A DNA stretch of 64,000 nucleotides from Acidobacteriota bacterium (GTDB taxonomy: Bacteria; Acidobacteriota; UBA6911; JACQSX01): the NCBI GenBank assembly GCA_016211105.1, contig JACQSX010000033.1, positions 124,001 to 188,000 of the forward strand, written 5' to 3'. The translations under genes were made by a program, and so were the position numbers. A model generated the notes under the pieces. That model ran no database searches. It was given only the letters and a program-made list of their open reading frames with translations, and was not told the DNA's origin. Shown here in pieces: positions 35,751-44,847 of this stretch (its first letter is position 1; each line of letters starts with the position of its first letter).

Positions 35751-35987
35751 CTCGATTCATAAATACGATAACGTTGGTTGCGAGCCAAGCCCTCATCATT
35801 AAACTATCGAATGCAAGAGCGCAGGATACGGCTCAACCCCGACAGTGCCTGCGGCAAAATTCGCACGTACGGCAACAACATCAATGGCGATTGCTCTTCG
35901 GCCCCTGCAAACCAGTGATTCTAACTTTGCAAGGCGCGCGTTGCCAGGTTTGTTAACATACCGCCATCTGAATCGAGGTACTTAGGT
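35751..35987. mobile_element. MITE-like element 2, related to that at 7164
   Basis: The left end (35751-35784, CTCGATTCATAAATACGATA onward) matches the end of element 1 over 34 bases with one difference. The right end (35969-35987) retains only the outermost 19 bases in inverted orientation (complement of CTAAGTACCTCGATTCA). The outermost ten bases are missing on the left. The interior is unrelated to element 1. The right end runs into the GT39 gene: its GAGGT and the following GTG act as ribosome binding site and start codon. Confidence 0.65.
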
Positions 35988-37668
35988 GGCACACAAAGCG
36001 AGATCTAAGAAATCTCAGGCAAAGGATATCCCTGCAAAGAATCCAGTTGCCCTTCTGTGGAGGTCCATCCTCACGAATCAGGCATGGTTTGCGCTGGTCG
36101 TGATCGCGATTGCATTCGCTTATTTCGTACTTCGGATGCACACCCTCACCATTCCCCTGGACAGAGATGAAGGAGCTTTCGGTTACATTGGGCGAGTGAT
36201 CCTGGATGGCGGCCTGCCCTATCGAGACGCTGTAGACCATAAGCCTCCCTATGTTTTCTATCTTTATGCTTTGGCGCTGCTTCTTGTCCCTGCAACAGCG
36301 GCGGGCATCCATCTCTTTTTGCATGTTTATAACTTCCTCGCACTGATATCTCTTTTCTTTCTAACGAGGATCTACTTCAGGTCTCCGGGCACGGCTCTAT
36401 GGGTGGCCTTCAGTTACGCAGTTTTCAGCGCCAGTCCGGCTATTCAAGGATTTACCGCCTCCACTGAGATGTTCATGCTCCTTCCGGTCACGCTGAGCCT
36501 TTTGTTTGCGGTCATGGCGGTGAGAAAGGCAAGCTTGGTTTCTCTCGCTTTCAGTGGCGTTGCCGGAGCGTTCGCTTTCTGGACCAAGCAGACAGCAATC
36601 ACCTCGCTCGCATTCGTGGTCATCTATGTCGCAGCCGGCTCGCTACAGAGCGGTCAAAGGAAGGAGAGACAACGCCTCCTCGACGCTTTAAAATCACTGC
36701 TGGTCTGGAGTATGGGAGCGGTAGTCGTTTCATGTTTCCTGGCAGGATATTTCTACCAAAGAAACCTCCTCCGAGAGTTCCTTTACTGGAGTTTTACTCA
36801 TAATGTCTCCTACGCTGGCAACGTTCCTATTTGGCAAAGTCTCACATGGGCTGCCACCGCGATGACTGAGATCCTCCGCGGTGATTTTCTGATTCTTGGC
36901 CTGGGTCTAGTCTTTGCGCTATGGCGCTTGTTCAAGACGGATGCAGACAGTTATTTTGTGCTCGGATTTCTTGCGGCCTCTCTGCTGGCGGCCGTGCCAG
37001 GCTATGCGTATCCCCATTATTTCGCCCAGATTGCGCCGGCCGCATCCCTCGCCGGGGGATGGGGATGGTCGACTCTGGTCGCGGGCATCCGGAACAAAAG
37101 AAATCGAGTAGGTGCGACATTGCTTTGTGGAATACTCATCGTCGGCATTCCGCTAAGCGTTCACCAGGAGTACTTCCTGAAAGAATCCTCCGATCAGATA
37201 AGCCGCCGCTATTTCGGCTATAACCCTTTTCCTGAATCAAAGCAAATAGCGCGCTTCCTCGCCGATCGGACCAGCCCCAAGGACGCTGTTTTCATTTTCG
37301 GCTCAGAGCCGCAAATTTTGCTTTACTCACAGCGGAAAAGCGCGACGCGCTTCGTTATGATTTACCCACTGACGAGCCGTTATCCGCGATACCGTGAGTT
37401 CCAGGAGAAAGCTTGGCAGGAAATCCAGGAAAATCGCCCAAAATATATCCTGCTGGTTAATATACCTACGTCGATCCTATGGGACGGTAAGGCAGATTTA
37501 CAGATCGTTAAGCGGCTCGACGACATGATCGGGCAACGATACTCGATCGAAGCGGTCATGCTGGTGAAAGATGCGAGAGGTAAGCTGGTGGTTACGGGAG
37601 ATCAAGATGTGCCCAGCAGGGAAATAACGGAGAGCCAGTCCAACATTTATATCTATCGATCAAAATGA
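35986..37668 (+). CDS. Glycosyltransferase family 39 (ArnT/PMT-like) membrane protein
   Basis: A 560-residue polytopic membrane protein with the GT39-type first loop: catalytic acids in IPLDRDEGAFGY near residue 60, then YRDAVDHKPPYVFYLYAL, both on the outer side. About eleven membrane helices follow, then a soluble C-terminal domain of about 165 residues (QIARFLADRTSPKDAVFIFG, a typical ending). Such enzymes use polyprenyl-phosphate sugars to glycosylate lipids or proteins. The start is a GTG with GAGGT seven bases upstream, both lying in the end of a MITE-like element. No ATG occurs before the first membrane segment. Confidence 0.85.
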   Translation: MAHKARSKKSQAKDIPAKNPVALLWRSILTNQAWFALVVIAIAFAYFVLRMHTLTIPLDRDEGAFGYIGRVILDGGLPYRDAVDHKPPYVFYLYALALLLVPATAAGIHLFLHVYNFLALISLFFLTRIYFRSPGTALWVAFSYAVFSASPAIQGFTASTEMFMLLPVTLSLLFAVMAVRKASLVSLAFSGVAGAFAFWTKQTAITSLAFVVIYVAAGSLQSGQRKERQRLLDALKSLLVWSMGAVVVSCFLAGYFYQRNLLREFLYWSFTHNVSYAGNVPIWQSLTWAATAMTEILRGDFLILGLGLVFALWRLFKTDADSYFVLGFLAASLLAAVPGYAYPHYFAQIAPAASLAGGWGWSTLVAGIRNKRNRVGATLLCGILIVGIPLSVHQEYFLKESSDQISRRYFGYNPFPESKQIARFLADRTSPKDAVFIFGSEPQILLYSQRKSATRFVMIYPLTSRYPRYREFQEKAWQEIQENRPKYILLVNIPTSILWDGKADLQIVKRLDDMIGQRYSIEAVMLVKDARGKLVVTGDQDVPSREITESQSNIYIYRSK

Positions 37669-37702
37669 AATTGACGATTCCCGTCGCAATCTGGAGATCC
37701 GA

Positions 37703-38593
37703 TTGAGTTTTGTGTCACAGGAAGCAATTGGCATCGCTGGAGCCGGGCGGATGGCTCAGGCTCTGGGAAGGTTGTTGTACCAGAAAGGTGAGCCTGTGGT
37801 CGCCGTGGCAAGCCGGAGCTATCACCGCGCAAAGGCCGCCTCCGCTTTCATTGGCCCTGCGGTGGAACCTCTCGTTTACGTTCAGCTACCTTCTCGCGCC
37901 AGGCGTGTGCTCATCGCCGTTCCGGACGATGCGGTTACCGCGGTAGCCCAAACACTTGTTGAAGGGGGAATGAAAGACGGCGCCGTCATTCACACCTGCG
38001 GGGCGCGTGGTCTCGAAGCAGTTGCGCCACTGGCCGACCAGGGTATCTCGTGCGCGGCATTGCACCCGCTACAAACCATCGCGTCCCCTGAACAGGGCGT
38101 GACAACTCTACCAGGATGCGCATTCGCCCTCACCGGTACCGGCGAGGCCGCCGCCTGGGGAGCACATATCATTGCCCTCCTGGGCGGCCAGACTCTTTCG
38201 ATTCAATCCCGGAACAAACCCATGTACCACGCGGCCGCCGTGATGGCCAGCAATTACATCGTGGCGCTCATCGAAGCAGCGACGATGCTGATGCGCGCAG
38301 GCGGGATTGAACGAGAGCAAGCGCTCCGCGCTCTTGCCCCAATGATACGCGCCAGCGCCGACAACGCTTTGTGCCTTGGGCCTTTGAATGCGCTCACGGG
38401 CCCCATCCAGAGAGGCGACATTCAGACCGTGGCGGCGCATTTGGAGGCGCTACGCGCTGTGCCGCTGCCGGGAGCGGTGTTACAGTTGTATCGCGCAGCG
38501 GGACTCCAGACACTGGAGCTTGCCAAGGAACGCGGATTATCCGCAGCCCTTGCAACGGAATTGGAGAACCTGTTAAAGGGAGGAAATAACTAG
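37703..38593 (+). CDS. Rossmann-fold DUF2520 protein, candidate PanG-type ketopantoate reductase
   Basis: A 296-residue protein with an N-terminal NAD(P)-binding domain (IGIAGAGRMAQALGRLL; VLIAVPDDAVTAVAQTLVEGG; VIHTCGARGLEAVAPLADQG) and a C-terminal helical DUF2520 domain (MYHAAAVMASNYIVALIEAA). It resembles ketopantoate reductase and pyrroline carboxylate reductase folds. It sits directly before panB (one base gap) and panC. From memory, the alternative ketopantoate reductase PanG of Francisella is also linked to pan genes and belongs to this broad family. No classical panE is in the window, so PanG function is a reasonable inference. The start is TTG with GGAG seven bases upstream; a GTG three codons later is an alternative. 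Confidence 0.8.
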   Translation: MSFVSQEAIGIAGAGRMAQALGRLLYQKGEPVVAVASRSYHRAKAASAFIGPAVEPLVYVQLPSRARRVLIAVPDDAVTAVAQTLVEGGMKDGAVIHTCGARGLEAVAPLADQGISCAALHPLQTIASPEQGVTTLPGCAFALTGTGEAAAWGAHIIALLGGQTLSIQSRNKPMYHAAAVMASNYIVALIEAATMLMRAGGIEREQALRALAPMIRASADNALCLGPLNALTGPIQRGDIQTVAAHLEALRAVPLPGAVLQLYRAAGLQTLELAKERGLSAALATELENLLKGGNN

Positions 38594-38594
38594 T

Positions 38595-39434
38595 ATGGCA
38601 GATTCCGGCAGACGGATTCGTGTACCTGATCTGAAGGCCAAGAAGGAGCGCGGTGAAAAGATCGCCATGCTCACCGCGTATGACGCCACGATGGCCCGTC
38701 TTTTGGATCAGGCGGGGATCGACGTGCTGCTTGTCGGCGACTCCCTTGGAATGGTGGTGTTGGGATATGAAACCACCCTTCCGGTGACGCTGGAAGCAAT
38801 GATCCACCACACGCAGGCAGTCAGTCGCGGCGCCAAGCGGGCGCTCGTGATCGCCGACATGCCGTTTCTCACCTATCAAGTCAGCGAATCCGAGGCAATT
38901 CGCAACGCGGGACGGCTGCTGCAAGAAGGGGGCGCCGCTGCGGTGAAGATCGAAGGAGGACGTCCGGTGGTCGCTGTCACGCGGCGGCTGGTGGAGCTTG
39001 GCATCCCGGTCATGGGCCACTTGGGACTGACACCTCAGTCGGTACATCTCATGGGCGGATTCCGACCCCAAGCTCAGTCCGAACCGGCCGCTGCGCGCCT
39101 GATTGAGGATGCTCGGATCTTGGAAGAAGCTGGGGCTTTTGCAATCGTTCTTGAATCGATCCCAGCCGAAGTCGCAAGGCAGGTCACCCTAGACGTGGGA
39201 ATCCCGACCATCGGCATCGGCGCGGGCCCGTATTGTGACGGGCAAGTACTGGTCTGTTATGACGCCTTTGGCTTATTCGACACTTTCGTCGCTCCATTTG
39301 TGAAACAGTATGCATCGCTTGGCCAGGAGATCATTGCAGCCGGCAGGGCGTATGCGGAAGATGTCCGCGCGGGCCGCTTTCCAACATTAGAACCGAACGG
39401 CCCGCCGGGCAAGCCACGAGAGGTACCAGAATGA
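38595..39434 (+). CDS. panB: 3-methyl-2-oxobutanoate hydroxymethyltransferase
   Basis: The first committed enzyme of pantothenate synthesis: it adds a hydroxymethyl group from methylenetetrahydrofolate to 2-oxoisovalerate, giving ketopantoate. The 279-residue protein shows the PanB signatures KIAMLTAYDATMARLLDQAG, VLLVGDSLGMVVLGYE (metal aspartate), IADMPFLTYQ, AVKIEGG, GHLGLTPQSVHLMGGFRPQ and IGIGAGPYCDGQVLV. AAGGGAGG precedes the ATG. It overlaps panC by four bases. Confidence 0.96.
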   Translation: MADSGRRIRVPDLKAKKERGEKIAMLTAYDATMARLLDQAGIDVLLVGDSLGMVVLGYETTLPVTLEAMIHHTQAVSRGAKRALVIADMPFLTYQVSESEAIRNAGRLLQEGGAAAVKIEGGRPVVAVTRRLVELGIPVMGHLGLTPQSVHLMGGFRPQAQSEPAAARLIEDARILEEAGAFAIVLESIPAEVARQVTLDVGIPTIGIGAGPYCDGQVLVCYDAFGLFDTFVAPFVKQYASLGQEIIAAGRAYAEDVRAGRFPTLEPNGPPGKPREVPE

Positions 39435-40285
39435 CAGTGCGGCTGGTTCACACGATTGCAGTCCTCAGAAAGGAGCTCGCAGCGTTCCCGGCCGTTCAAA
39501 CGCGTGGATTTGTGCCCACCATGGGGGCGCTTCACGCCGGCCATGGTCGCCTGATCCATCGGGCGCGCGCAGAATGCGACCAAGTGATGGTCAGCGTTTT
39601 TGTCAATCCGCTGCAATTTGGACCGAAGGAAGACTACACCGGTTATCCCAGGACTCTGCAGGAAGATTGCGCTTTTTGTGACGCGCGCGGCGTCGACATT
39701 CTGTTTGCTCCAGAGGCAGAGGAGATTTACCCACGTCCCCAGCTTACCTTCGTGGAGGTAAGCCGGATGAGCGAGCCACTATGCGGGCGCTTCCGACCGA
39801 ACCATTTCCGTGGAGTGACTACCGTGGTGCTCAAGCTTTTTCATATGATTCAGCCCCATCGGGCATACTTCGGCGAGAAGGATGCACAGCAGCTAGCATT
39901 GATCCGCCGCATGGTTCTGGATTTGAACCTGCCAACCACGATTGTTGCAGTACCCACCGTACGTGAAGATGATGGTCTGGCCTGCAGCTCGCGCAATCGG
40001 TATCTCAATCCACAACAGCGTCAGGCCGCGGTTGTCCTCTATCGTGCTCTGCAAGCGGCCCAAAATCAGATTGCCGCCGGAGCCACGGATCCGCGTCAGG
40101 TTCAGGCGGCGGCTTTGGCGATCTTGCAGCAGGAACCGCTGGCGCGGGTCGAGTACCTGGAACTGGTGGACCCGGATGAGATGCAGGCCGTAACGCAGAT
40201 TACCGGCCCAGCACGGTTAGCCGGAGCCATCTGGATCGGTTCGACGCGATTAATTGACAATGTCCTTTGCCAGCCGCCTGGCTGA
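39431..40285 (+). CDS. panC: Pantothenate synthetase
   Basis: Condenses pantoate with beta-alanine using ATP. The 284-residue protein has the nucleotide-binding MGALHAGHGRLIHRA (HxGH-type site), VSVFVNPLQFGPKEDY, FHMIQPHRAYFGEKDAQQLA and the KMSKS-equivalent CSSRNRYL. Its ATG overlaps the panB stop in an ATGA. panD, which makes beta-alanine, is not in the window. Confidence 0.96.
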   Translation: MTVRLVHTIAVLRKELAAFPAVQTRGFVPTMGALHAGHGRLIHRARAECDQVMVSVFVNPLQFGPKEDYTGYPRTLQEDCAFCDARGVDILFAPEAEEIYPRPQLTFVEVSRMSEPLCGRFRPNHFRGVTTVVLKLFHMIQPHRAYFGEKDAQQLALIRRMVLDLNLPTTIVAVPTVREDDGLACSSRNRYLNPQQRQAAVVLYRALQAAQNQIAAGATDPRQVQAAALAILQQEPLARVEYLELVDPDEMQAVTQITGPARLAGAIWIGSTRLIDNVLCQPPG

Positions 40286-40516: not shown

Positions 40517-40569
40517 GAAGCCGCGTAGCGGCGTTTTTCAGAATTGTGGCCGGGGGCGTCTGCCCCCGG
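40517..40569 (+). repeat. REP-like repeat, left copy flanking the transposase
   Basis: Contains GCCGCGTAGCGGCG, a TTTTTCAGAATTGTGG linker and a hairpin CCGGGGGC/GCCCCCGG. The same modules in inverted orientation lie on the other side of the broken transposase. Confidence 0.7.
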
Positions 40570-40653: not shown

Positions 40654-41084
40654 ATGGCACAGACATTCAGCAGCCTGATTGTCCACATCGTCTTCAGCAC
40701 CAAGGGGCGCGCTGAGTTTATCTGCAAGCAGATGCGGGCGCCGCTGTGGGGCTATCTGGGAGGAATTGTTCGAAATATCGGCCTGAAGCCGATCATGTTC
40801 ATTTGCTTGTCGGCATGGTCCCCGCTGTGTCGATCTCTGAATGGGTACACGTGCTCAAATCAAATTCTTCAAAGTGGATGCACGACAACTGGCCGCATTA
40901 CCGCCCATTTGCATGGCAAGATGGCTATGCTGCTTTCAGCGTGAGCCTTTCGGATTTGGACCAGCTCTACAGATACATAGTTAGTCAGGAGCAACATCAC
41001 CGTAAGATTTCGTTTCGGGAAGAACTTTTAGCGTTGCTCCGCAGGCACAAGATTGCCTTTGACGAGCGGTACCTGCTCGGTTGA
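40654..41084 (+). pseudogene. REP-associated tyrosine (IS200-like Y1) transposase, frameshifted
   Basis: The first frame gives MAQTFSSLIVHIVFSTKGRA and RAPLWGYLGGIVRNIGLK, the typical start of a Y1 transposase. Near 40790 it shifts: the second frame gives ADHVHLLVGM (catalytic HxH), VLKSNSSKWMHDNWP, FAWQDGYAAFSVS, QLYRYIVSQEQHHRK (catalytic Tyr) and ends FDERYLLG. Around the shift the family normally has several more residues between the two parts, so a small deletion caused the shift. It was a single-domain RAYT enzyme, now inactive. Inverted REP copies flank it. Confidence 0.8.
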
Positions 41085-41631: not shown

Positions 41632-43002
41632 TCAGCAGGGCTCCGGCCAGCGCCACGTCTCTAGCGCCTGCGCAATTTGATCCAGGGCCCACGCGGTCTC
41701 CTGATCGCTGATCACGTAGGGCGGCATGAAGTAGACCACATTGCCTAGCGGACGGAGAAGCAGGCCGCGTCGCAGGAATTCGGCGGCCAGAAGAGGCCCA
41801 ACACGATCCAGGTACCCTCCGGCGGCGCGGGCCTGCTTGTCTTGCACCAACTCTACAATGCCCACTCCACCAATCACCCGCACATCTCCTACATGTGGCA
41901 GCGCCCGAAGCGGCTCCAGCCGGGAGCGGAGCTGTTGTTCCAGCGCTCTAACGCGTTCCAACACATTCTCGGTACGGAACAACTCGAGGCTGGCCAGCGC
42001 CACGGCGCAGCCCAGCGGATTTGCGCTGTAAGAATGCCCATGAAAGAATGTCTTGCGTCGGTCGTCGCTCAAGAAAGCTTCATAGACCGGCTCCGTCGTC
42101 ACCGTCGCTGCCATCGGCAGATAGCCCGCGGTGAGCGCCTTAGAAAGGCAAATCATGTCAGGGCGCACTCCCGCATGTTCGCAAGCAAACATACGCCCTG
42201 TGCGACCGAACCCAGTCAGCACTTCATCAGCAATCATCAGGGTTCCGTACTGCTCGCACAGTCGCCGAACCCCGGAGAGGAACTCCACCGGCCACACAAT
42301 CATGCCGCCCGCCCCTTGCAGCATCGGCTCGACCAGTACCGCCGCGATCGCGCCGTCGCCCTCGCGCAGCAGCCGCTGCAGGTCATCGAGACATGCCACT
42401 CCACATGTGGCGCGCTCAAGACCCAGGGGGCAACGATAACAATAGGGCGACTGAGCCCGAGCCACAGGGAAGAGTAACGGGGCGAATGGCCGCGTAAATG
42501 AAGAGTCTTCGCTGGTTGACATGGTTCCCACCGTGTCGCCATGATAAGCATGGCGAAGGGCGATGAAATTTCGACGTTCCGGTTCACCTCGATTCAACCA
42601 ATACTGACACGCGATTTTTAACGCCACCTCTACCGCCGTGGAGCCGTTGTCGGAATAAAACACCCGCGTCAAACCCCCGGGCAATAAATCGGTCAACCGT
42701 TCCGCCAACTCCACAGCCGGAAGATGGGTGCAGCCTGCAAACAGCACGTGTTCCAACTTGCGTGCCTGCGCTGCCAGTGCTTCGTTTAACTTCGGGTGGC
42801 TGTGTCCATGGATGTTCACCCACCAGGACGAGATACCATCCAGCAATCGGCGACCGTCTTGGGTGTACAGGTAAACTCCCTGGGCGCGTACAATCGGAAG
42901 CGGCGGAGGCGCAGTCTGCATTTGCGTGTACGGATGCCAGACATGTGAGGCGTCGCGAACGATCAGGTCGAATCTGGCATCGGTTCTTGTGTTTGCCAGC
43001 AT
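41632..43002 (-). CDS. bioA: Adenosylmethionine-8-amino-7-oxononanoate aminotransferase
   Basis: A PLP enzyme (456 residues) that converts 8-amino-7-oxononanoate to 7,8-diaminononanoate with S-adenosylmethionine as amino donor. Signatures are HVWHPYTQMQTAPPPLPIVR, GISSWWVNIHGHSHPKLNEA, YSDNGSTAVEVALKIACQYW, RHAYHGDTVGTMS and IADEVLTGFGRTGRMFACEH, with the PLP lysine in LSKALTAGYLPMA. The ATG at 43002 overlaps the bioD stop (TGATG); a longer frame to 43059 runs into bioD and has no support. It is last of the bio operon. Confidence 0.95.
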   Translation of the reverse strand: MLANTRTDARFDLIVRDASHVWHPYTQMQTAPPPLPIVRAQGVYLYTQDGRRLLDGISSWWVNIHGHSHPKLNEALAAQARKLEHVLFAGCTHLPAVELAERLTDLLPGGLTRVFYSDNGSTAVEVALKIACQYWLNRGEPERRNFIALRHAYHGDTVGTMSTSEDSSFTRPFAPLLFPVARAQSPYCYRCPLGLERATCGVACLDDLQRLLREGDGAIAAVLVEPMLQGAGGMIVWPVEFLSGVRRLCEQYGTLMIADEVLTGFGRTGRMFACEHAGVRPDMICLSKALTAGYLPMAATVTTEPVYEAFLSDDRRKTFFHGHSYSANPLGCAVALASLELFRTENVLERVRALEQQLRSRLEPLRALPHVGDVRVIGGVGIVELVQDKQARAAGGYLDRVGPLLAAEFLRRGLLLRPLGNVVYFMPPYVISDQETAWALDQIAQALETWRWPEPC

Positions 43003-43670
43003 CACTCCCGCAAAAACTCTGTTAGTAAACCGGTTGGATCGAGTTGGGTTTGGGCCCATCGACCTAGCGCCGCAGATGTAAGCGGCTCAAGACGTGGCAT
43101 CTCACCCAGTACGGAGACGGAACCAAACTGCTCAATTGCGGCGCGATTGTCTGAGTTGGCATCGCCAACCATCACTACACCGGCGACACGCAACGACCGG
43201 CGCCGCAGCGCCTCCAGTGTAAGCAACGTGTGGTTGATCGTGCCCAAGGCGGCACGCGCCGCCACGACCACTGGAAGAGCCAGCCGTTCCATCAAATCGA
43301 TCATCAGGTGCGTCTCGTTCACGGGAGCCAAGATCCCGCCGGCTCCTTCCACTACCCACCCGATCGTTTTGGGCCGCGGCAGTAGCAGGCCTAAAAGCTC
43401 TTCAATTACAATTCTCTGCCCCGCCAACCGCGCCGCCAGATGGGGTGAGAGCGGACGCGCCAGCCGAACCCCCCCATCAAAAATCTCCGCGTCCGCGCAC
43501 TTCCCCAACATGCGTACCTTGGCCGTATCATCCTCTTGATCGATTCCCGTCTGGATCGGCTTCCAGTAGCATAGTTGCGCTGCGCCACGGTAGCGATGCA
43601 TGAATGCCGCCGCCAACACTGTTTTGCCGACTGCGGTGTCGGTCCCGGTAATAAAGACGCCATGCAACAT
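43002..43670 (-). CDS. bioD: Dethiobiotin synthetase
   Basis: A 222-residue ATP-dependent carboxylase that closes the ureido ring of dethiobiotin. The P-loop FITGTDTAVGKTVLAAAF is at residues 6-23; YWKPIQTGI and VVEGAGGILAPVNE follow. It begins seven bases after the bioF stop and overlaps bioA. Confidence 0.93.
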   Translation of the reverse strand: MLHGVFITGTDTAVGKTVLAAAFMHRYRGAAQLCYWKPIQTGIDQEDDTAKVRMLGKCADAEIFDGGVRLARPLSPHLAARLAGQRIVIEELLGLLLPRPKTIGWVVEGAGGILAPVNETHLMIDLMERLALPVVVAARAALGTINHTLLTLEALRRRSLRVAGVVMVGDANSDNRAAIEQFGSVSVLGEMPRLEPLTSAALGRWAQTQLDPTGLLTEFLRE

Positions 43671-43677
43671 CTCTCCA

Positions 43678-44847
43678 TCACCCTGGCCAACTTAGATCCT
43701 CGGTGGACTCGGCGGCTGCAAGCGCCGCCGCCAATGCCAAGGCAAAGCGGCGCAGCTCCGCTTCCTCAAGATTCACATTGACCGCGATCCGAAGGCGTGC
43801 GGCGCCCTGGGGTACCGTCGGGGGGCGAATCGCCCGCACATCAAAACCGTCCGCTTGTAACGCCGCAGCCACCGCAACGGCTCGCGCATTATCTCCAAGA
43901 ATCACCGGGAGGATCTGCGAACACGCTGCCGGCAAAGGAACGCTGTTCTCAGTCAGCAGCCTGCGTAGCAGTCCGACTCGACTCATGAGGTTCACTCGCC
44001 GCTCCGGCTCATCCGCAATTACCGTGAGAGCGGCGTCCAGGGCTGCCGCCATTGCCGGAGGAGGAGCGGTGGAAAAGATAAACGGCCGCGCGCGTTGGAT
44101 CAGAAAATCAACTGCCCAGGTTGGGCCCGCCACAAAGGCGCCGCCGACTCCAAGCGCTTTGCCCGCGGGGTTAATCGACAGAAAAACATTCTCGTCGACG
44201 GCGGTGGCCTCAATCAGCCCACTTCCCCGAGAGCCGTAGATGCCGACGGCGTGCGCCTCATCCACGATCAACGCGGTACGGGTGGCGCGACACAAGGCGG
44301 CATATTCGCGCAGCGGCGCCTGGTCACCATCCATACTGAAGAGTGATTCAGTGACAAGAAATTTTTGCCCTCCTTCCCTCTCCGCCTCCAGCCGTTGCCG
44401 CAGGGCTGCGACGTTGCAGTGGGGATAGACGACCCTCCGCGCCTGAGCCAATCGCAAGCCGTCGATCAGACTGGCGTGATTGAACTCATCGGAAAACACC
44501 ACATCTCCCGGTTCGAGAAAGGTGGTCAAGACGCCGATGTTTGCGGCGTAGCCGCTTCCAAAATAGAGCGCGGCTTGCGTTCCCTTGAACGCCGCGAAGC
44601 GCCGCTCGACGGCGCTAAAAGTGGTTCGCTCTCCCCGCAGCAAACGCGAGCCGGTGGAGCCACAGCCTTCGCGCATCACCGCTTCCGCCATGCGCTCTTT
44701 TAACAACGGATGCGTGGATAACCCGAGATAATCATTGGACGAAAGATCGATGCCCGTGGGAGGACGCAGGTAGCGCCGCAAGCCGGCGGCGTCCAGCTCT
44801 TCGAAGTGATGGCGCACGCGTCGCTCAAGTTCACCAGGTAGCGTCAT
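43678..44847 (-). CDS. bioF: 8-amino-7-oxononanoate synthase
   Basis: A PLP enzyme (389 residues) joining alanine and pimeloyl thioester. Signatures: [85 protein letters not shown] and [17 protein letters not shown]. The PLP lysine is in [14 protein letters not shown]. The family normally has T/S-x-x-K here, so NPAGK is slightly divergent but keeps the lysine. The gene overlaps bioB by 17 bases. Confidence 0.93.

Follow-up and report, generated by a model that had tools for sequence, protein, structure and literature searches.

The Rossmann/DUF2520 protein whose gene lies immediately 5′ of panB in the window (the whole stretch of 64,000 nucleotides of acidobacterial DNA that was analysed) is very probably, at about 0.88 by our own estimate and judging from the sequence, a PanG-type, NADPH-dependent 2-dehydropantoate (ketopantoate) 2-reductase that is made together with PanB and PanC. 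In the proposed pathway, PanB would convert 2-oxoisovalerate to ketopantoate, the DUF2520 protein, with NAD(P)H bound to its N-terminal Rossmann domain, would reduce the keto group, giving D-pantoate, and PanC would couple this pantoate to beta-alanine. An earlier, sequence-only reading of the same DNA had predicted a PanG-like function and presented the gene as a candidate alternative ketopantoate reductase; the function draws support from linkage, the phylum profile, gene order and the literature (PMC4572677), but the novelty does not stand, as the role of the family was already established. The PanG assignment for DUF2520/COG5495 proteins is thus in the literature, and the window gene is most likely a further, ordinary member of a known family, whose PanG-type enzyme is known from experiment in two genera only.

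The locus consists of three consecutive open reading frames on the forward strand (37703–40285). The first of these, the panG-like gene for a Rossmann + DUF2520 oxidoreductase (37703–38593, 296 aa, assigned from the reading frame and Pfam), begins with a TTG, which is favoured over an in-frame GTG at 37712 because a Shine-Dalgarno-like GGAG, read from the sequence at 37691–37697 of the same strand, lies about 6 bases before it. It is followed by panB, for ketopantoate hydroxymethyltransferase (38595–39434, 279 aa; Pfam match 5.5e-114, and the NCBIfam panB equivalog TIGR00222 above cut-off), and by panC, for pantoate–beta-alanine ligase (39431–40285, 284 aa; Pfam match 7.3e-106, and the panC equivalog TIGR00018 above cut-off). 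The coordinates agree with what had been described, namely a DUF2520 gene one base before a panB that overlaps panC: the stop codon TAG occupies 38591–38593, a single base follows, and then comes the ATG of panB, while panB and panC share 4 bases (ATGA); a GGGAGG 5′ of panB, also read directly, would be its ribosome-binding site and sits within the final codons of the DUF2520 gene. The gene had been said, furthermore, to be fused into the pantothenate operon, and of this the adjacency holds, but a DUF2520-PanB protein fusion is ruled out, as the two are separate reading frames, with a stop and a start of their own.

A promoter scan at the locus gave matches at chance level, and 3′ of panC a terminator-like hairpin followed by a run of T (40520–40532, forward strand) is a consensus match only. 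The glycosyltransferase gene upstream (35986–37668), 34 bases away, is unlikely to be a member of the operon, since a relative (L035) carries a peptidase S49 gene in that position. On the other side, between panC and the biotin genes, there are remains of an IS200-like (Y1) transposase (40654–41084, forward strand), apparently frameshifted into two overlapping reading frames, and bioA, bioD and a bioF-like gene stand in a row on the reverse strand (41632–44847), close to the pantothenate genes.

The DUF2520 protein combines an N-terminal Rossmann-like domain (PF10727, residues 8–122, E = 8e-13) with the DUF2520 domain itself (PF10728, residues 139–269, E = 2.6e-33, 114.9 bits against a cut-off of 25), and its GxGxx(G/A) NAD(P)-binding motif reads GAGRMA, at residues 13–18. 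It contains D75, H97, G100, H121-P122, Y175-H176 and the motif LTGPxxRxD, residues that are invariant or nearly so across 19 diverse sequences (where the motif takes the form LxGPxxRxD) and that are common to the Enterococcus and Clostridium homologues as well. The probable catalytic site would be formed by the invariant Asp75, His97, His121, Tyr175 and His176, together with LTGPxxRxD, at the cleft with the helical C-terminal domain. A structure model built from three sequences (mean pLDDT 85.8, pTM 0.83) has a beta-alpha-beta Rossmann domain at the N-terminus and a helical domain at the C-terminus; in fold it comes closest to 3d1l, a DUF2520 protein, and to reductases and dehydrogenases that use NAD(P)H and are of the 6-phosphogluconate-dehydrogenase type, although with TM scores of 0.45–0.54 and large rmsd values, because of which the relative placement of the two domains in the model is uncertain. 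Equating Lys172 (NKPMYH) with the catalytic Lys of PanE was considered and is suggestive only, given that the hhalign match ends before this position and that two relatives have Arg there.

The sequence-only reading had also stated that panE is lacking, and had called for a search of the whole genome for panE and ilvC. In the assembly (3.50 Mb, 52 contigs, 93.6% complete), the profile search found no PanE C-terminal domain, ApbA_C (PF08546), anywhere, the window protein included, and the four matches to the ApbA N-terminal domain belong to other enzymes: GpsA (glycerol-3-phosphate dehydrogenase), UDP-glucose dehydrogenase, 3-hydroxyacyl-CoA dehydrogenase and ProC (pyrroline-5-carboxylate reductase). 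A PanE hidden elsewhere in the genome is accordingly rejected, and this half of the search speaks for the earlier reading; the other half leaves room for redundancy, in that the genome has, beside its single DUF2520 gene, one intact ilvC, so that the DUF2520 gene need not be the sole ketopantoate reductase here. PanD aspartate decarboxylase (PF02261) was not found in the assembly either, despite the presence of PanB and PanC, and its gene may fall in the missing 6%.

That IlvC could suffice is a point against the PanG role, and it leads to a different explanation, in which IlvC would be the real ketopantoate reductase of this organism and the DUF2520 protein secondary or redundant. IlvC does contribute to ketopantoate reduction in B. 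subtilis (PMC11487621), and within the phylum there are 31 genomes with DUF2520 and IlvC in the absence of PanE, as well as seven PanB-positive genomes in which IlvC is the only known reductase. We nevertheless consider this explanation improbable, firstly, because the DUF2520 gene has been preserved in intact form, in tight coupling with panB, secondly, because two relatives of the same class (G185 and G192) have the same gene order with neither IlvC nor PanE, and finally, because of the distribution of the two enzymes in the phylum, where IlvC, unlike DUF2520, is also found in genomes without PanB.

This distribution was obtained by searching one and the same set of 198 genomes of the phylum for DUF2520, PanB, the PanE C-terminal domain and KARI (IlvC). 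PanB is present in all 116 genomes that have DUF2520 and in 45 of the 82 that do not, and none of the 37 genomes without PanB has DUF2520; among the 161 with PanB, DUF2520 and PanE are mutually depleted (odds ratio 0.095), and this avoidance keeps its direction, in weaker form, when the genomes are collapsed to family majorities, a treatment that covered PanE alone, the genomes being related, so that the respective p-values (Fisher, 1.5e-17 for the association with PanB; 1.5e-9 for the avoidance, and 0.014 after the collapse) are only indicative. When DUF2520, PanE and KARI are compared, DUF2520 is the sole known reductase in 53 of the 161 PanB-positive genomes; put another way, where both PanE and KARI are missing, DUF2520 is found in 53 of 55 genomes with PanB, as against 0 of 6 without it. 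The two PanB-positive genomes that lack all three reductases (G065, 90% complete, and G166, 87% complete) could reflect assembly gaps or a further ketopantoate reductase.

Gene order in relatives and in other phyla points in the same direction as the distribution. In the same class, G185 and G192 carry DUF2520-panB-panC, with DUF2520 proteins 54–55% identical to that of the window, and G121 carries DUF2520-panB, while in two loci of the sister family (L054 and L055) the order is panB-panE-panC. Elsewhere in the phylum the arrangement varies, with DUF2520-panC-panB in two loci (L047 and L048) and panB-panC-DUF2520 in three (L049–L051). Beyond the phylum, DUF2520-panB-panC-panD is found in an E. 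faecium plasmid, in E. avium and in a Clostridium, and the same order without panD in a plasmid of Thermomicrobium roseum; the Enterococcus query matched only E. avium and E. raffinosus, along with a Clostridium. A chance adjacency of the DUF2520 gene and the pan genes is unlikely, as the same order recurs in another family of the class, at the 54–55% identity mentioned, and in unrelated phyla. Plasmid DUF2520 genes at a distance from every panB or panC gene listed were also seen, in Legionella antarctica (L037, its protein 31.8% identical to that of the window) and in Novosphingobium (L038, 34.9%).

In the phylum sample as a whole, DUF2520 genes adjoin panB or panC in 10 of 116 cases, from five families, as read from the contig lists (L033 in the case of G121); most lie away from panB, which counts against the PanG role, and some are beside murB, an adjacency observed in other families at L008, L029 and L034 (G056, G067 and G167) and judged by eye at L031 (G143). 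Those members that adjoin murB and no pan gene would also fit an explanation in which the DUF2520 protein reduces some other substrate, or regulates a link between B5 and folate as was once proposed for Rv3603c, and is linked to panB for co-regulation; a regulatory B5-B9 link has indeed been put forward for COG5495 (PMC3317503), and the fold is common to many NAD(P)H reductases. We regard this as very improbable, in view of the complementary distribution of DUF2520 with PanE and IlvC among PanB-positive genomes, the presence of PanE in the same operon of the sister family, and the PanG activity reported for the DUF2520 family (PMC4572677). The first two of these speak for the reductase step itself. 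It also seems likely that DUF2520 and PanE enzymes have been swapped within the same pan operon in one class, and that the DUF2520 enzyme is the main ketopantoate reductase of the whole phylum.

Annotation pipelines label these proteins as “DUF2520 domain-containing”, and no model in NCBIfam 20.0 names the window protein; under such generic labels, pantothenate synthesis seems to have a gap in numerous genomes that are probably complete. The pattern across the 198 genomes offers a simple reason for annotating the DUF2520 family as PanG, and it is the most useful by-product of the analysis, with the PanB-positive genomes that lack both PanE and IlvC as good test cases.

Among known systems, the nearest solved homologues are 3d1l (Bacteroides fragilis BF3122) and 2i76 (Thermotoga maritima TM1727), found at 7e-13 and 4e-11 by sequence and at 2.5e-38 and 2e-45 by profile, and both also rank near the top in fold; they are about 22–23% identical to the window protein, their domain orientation differs from that of the model (rmsd 13–16 Å), and both were deposited without an assigned substrate. 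PanE/ApbA (PF02558 + PF08546) shares the proposed reaction and an N-terminal Rossmann domain, but the hhalign match to E. coli PanE is weak, limited to that domain and at 12% identity, which is a further point against the PanG role. COG5495 we take to be the DUF2520 family. Its M. tuberculosis member, Rv3603c, shares an operon with panC and further pantothenate genes and was proposed in 2012 to be regulatory (PMC3317503), a proposal that predates the description of PanG. In another published case, DUF2520, panB, panC and panD have nearby locus tags and a similar change in expression (PMC9705837). The name PanG has been given to two proteins, the Francisella DUF2520 enzyme and YkpB of B. subtilis, which belongs to the PanE family (PMC11487621).

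The pan operon of Enterococcus and Clostridium has its first three genes in the same order as the window, with DUF2520 proteins about 26–28% identical over nearly the full length, and differs in having panD after panC, none being found in the genome of the window. Francisella SCHU S4 is not known to have an ilvC. The organism of the window does have one, and its order is DUF2520-panB-panC, without panD. In 2013 Miller et al. reportedly observed reciprocal complementation among F. novicida, E. coli and EF1861. The likeness to PanG (FTT1388/EF1861) consists in a Rossmann + DUF2520 family protein linked to pantothenate synthesis where PanE is absent, with the homology drawn from PMC4572677: there, EF1861 of Enterococcus faecalis and FTT1388 are included among the DUF2520 homologues, with the activity shown in Francisella, for which Miller et al. 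2013 (PanG, J Bacteriol 195:965) is cited, and Corynebacterium ulceribovis is described as having a DUF2520 protein and no panE.
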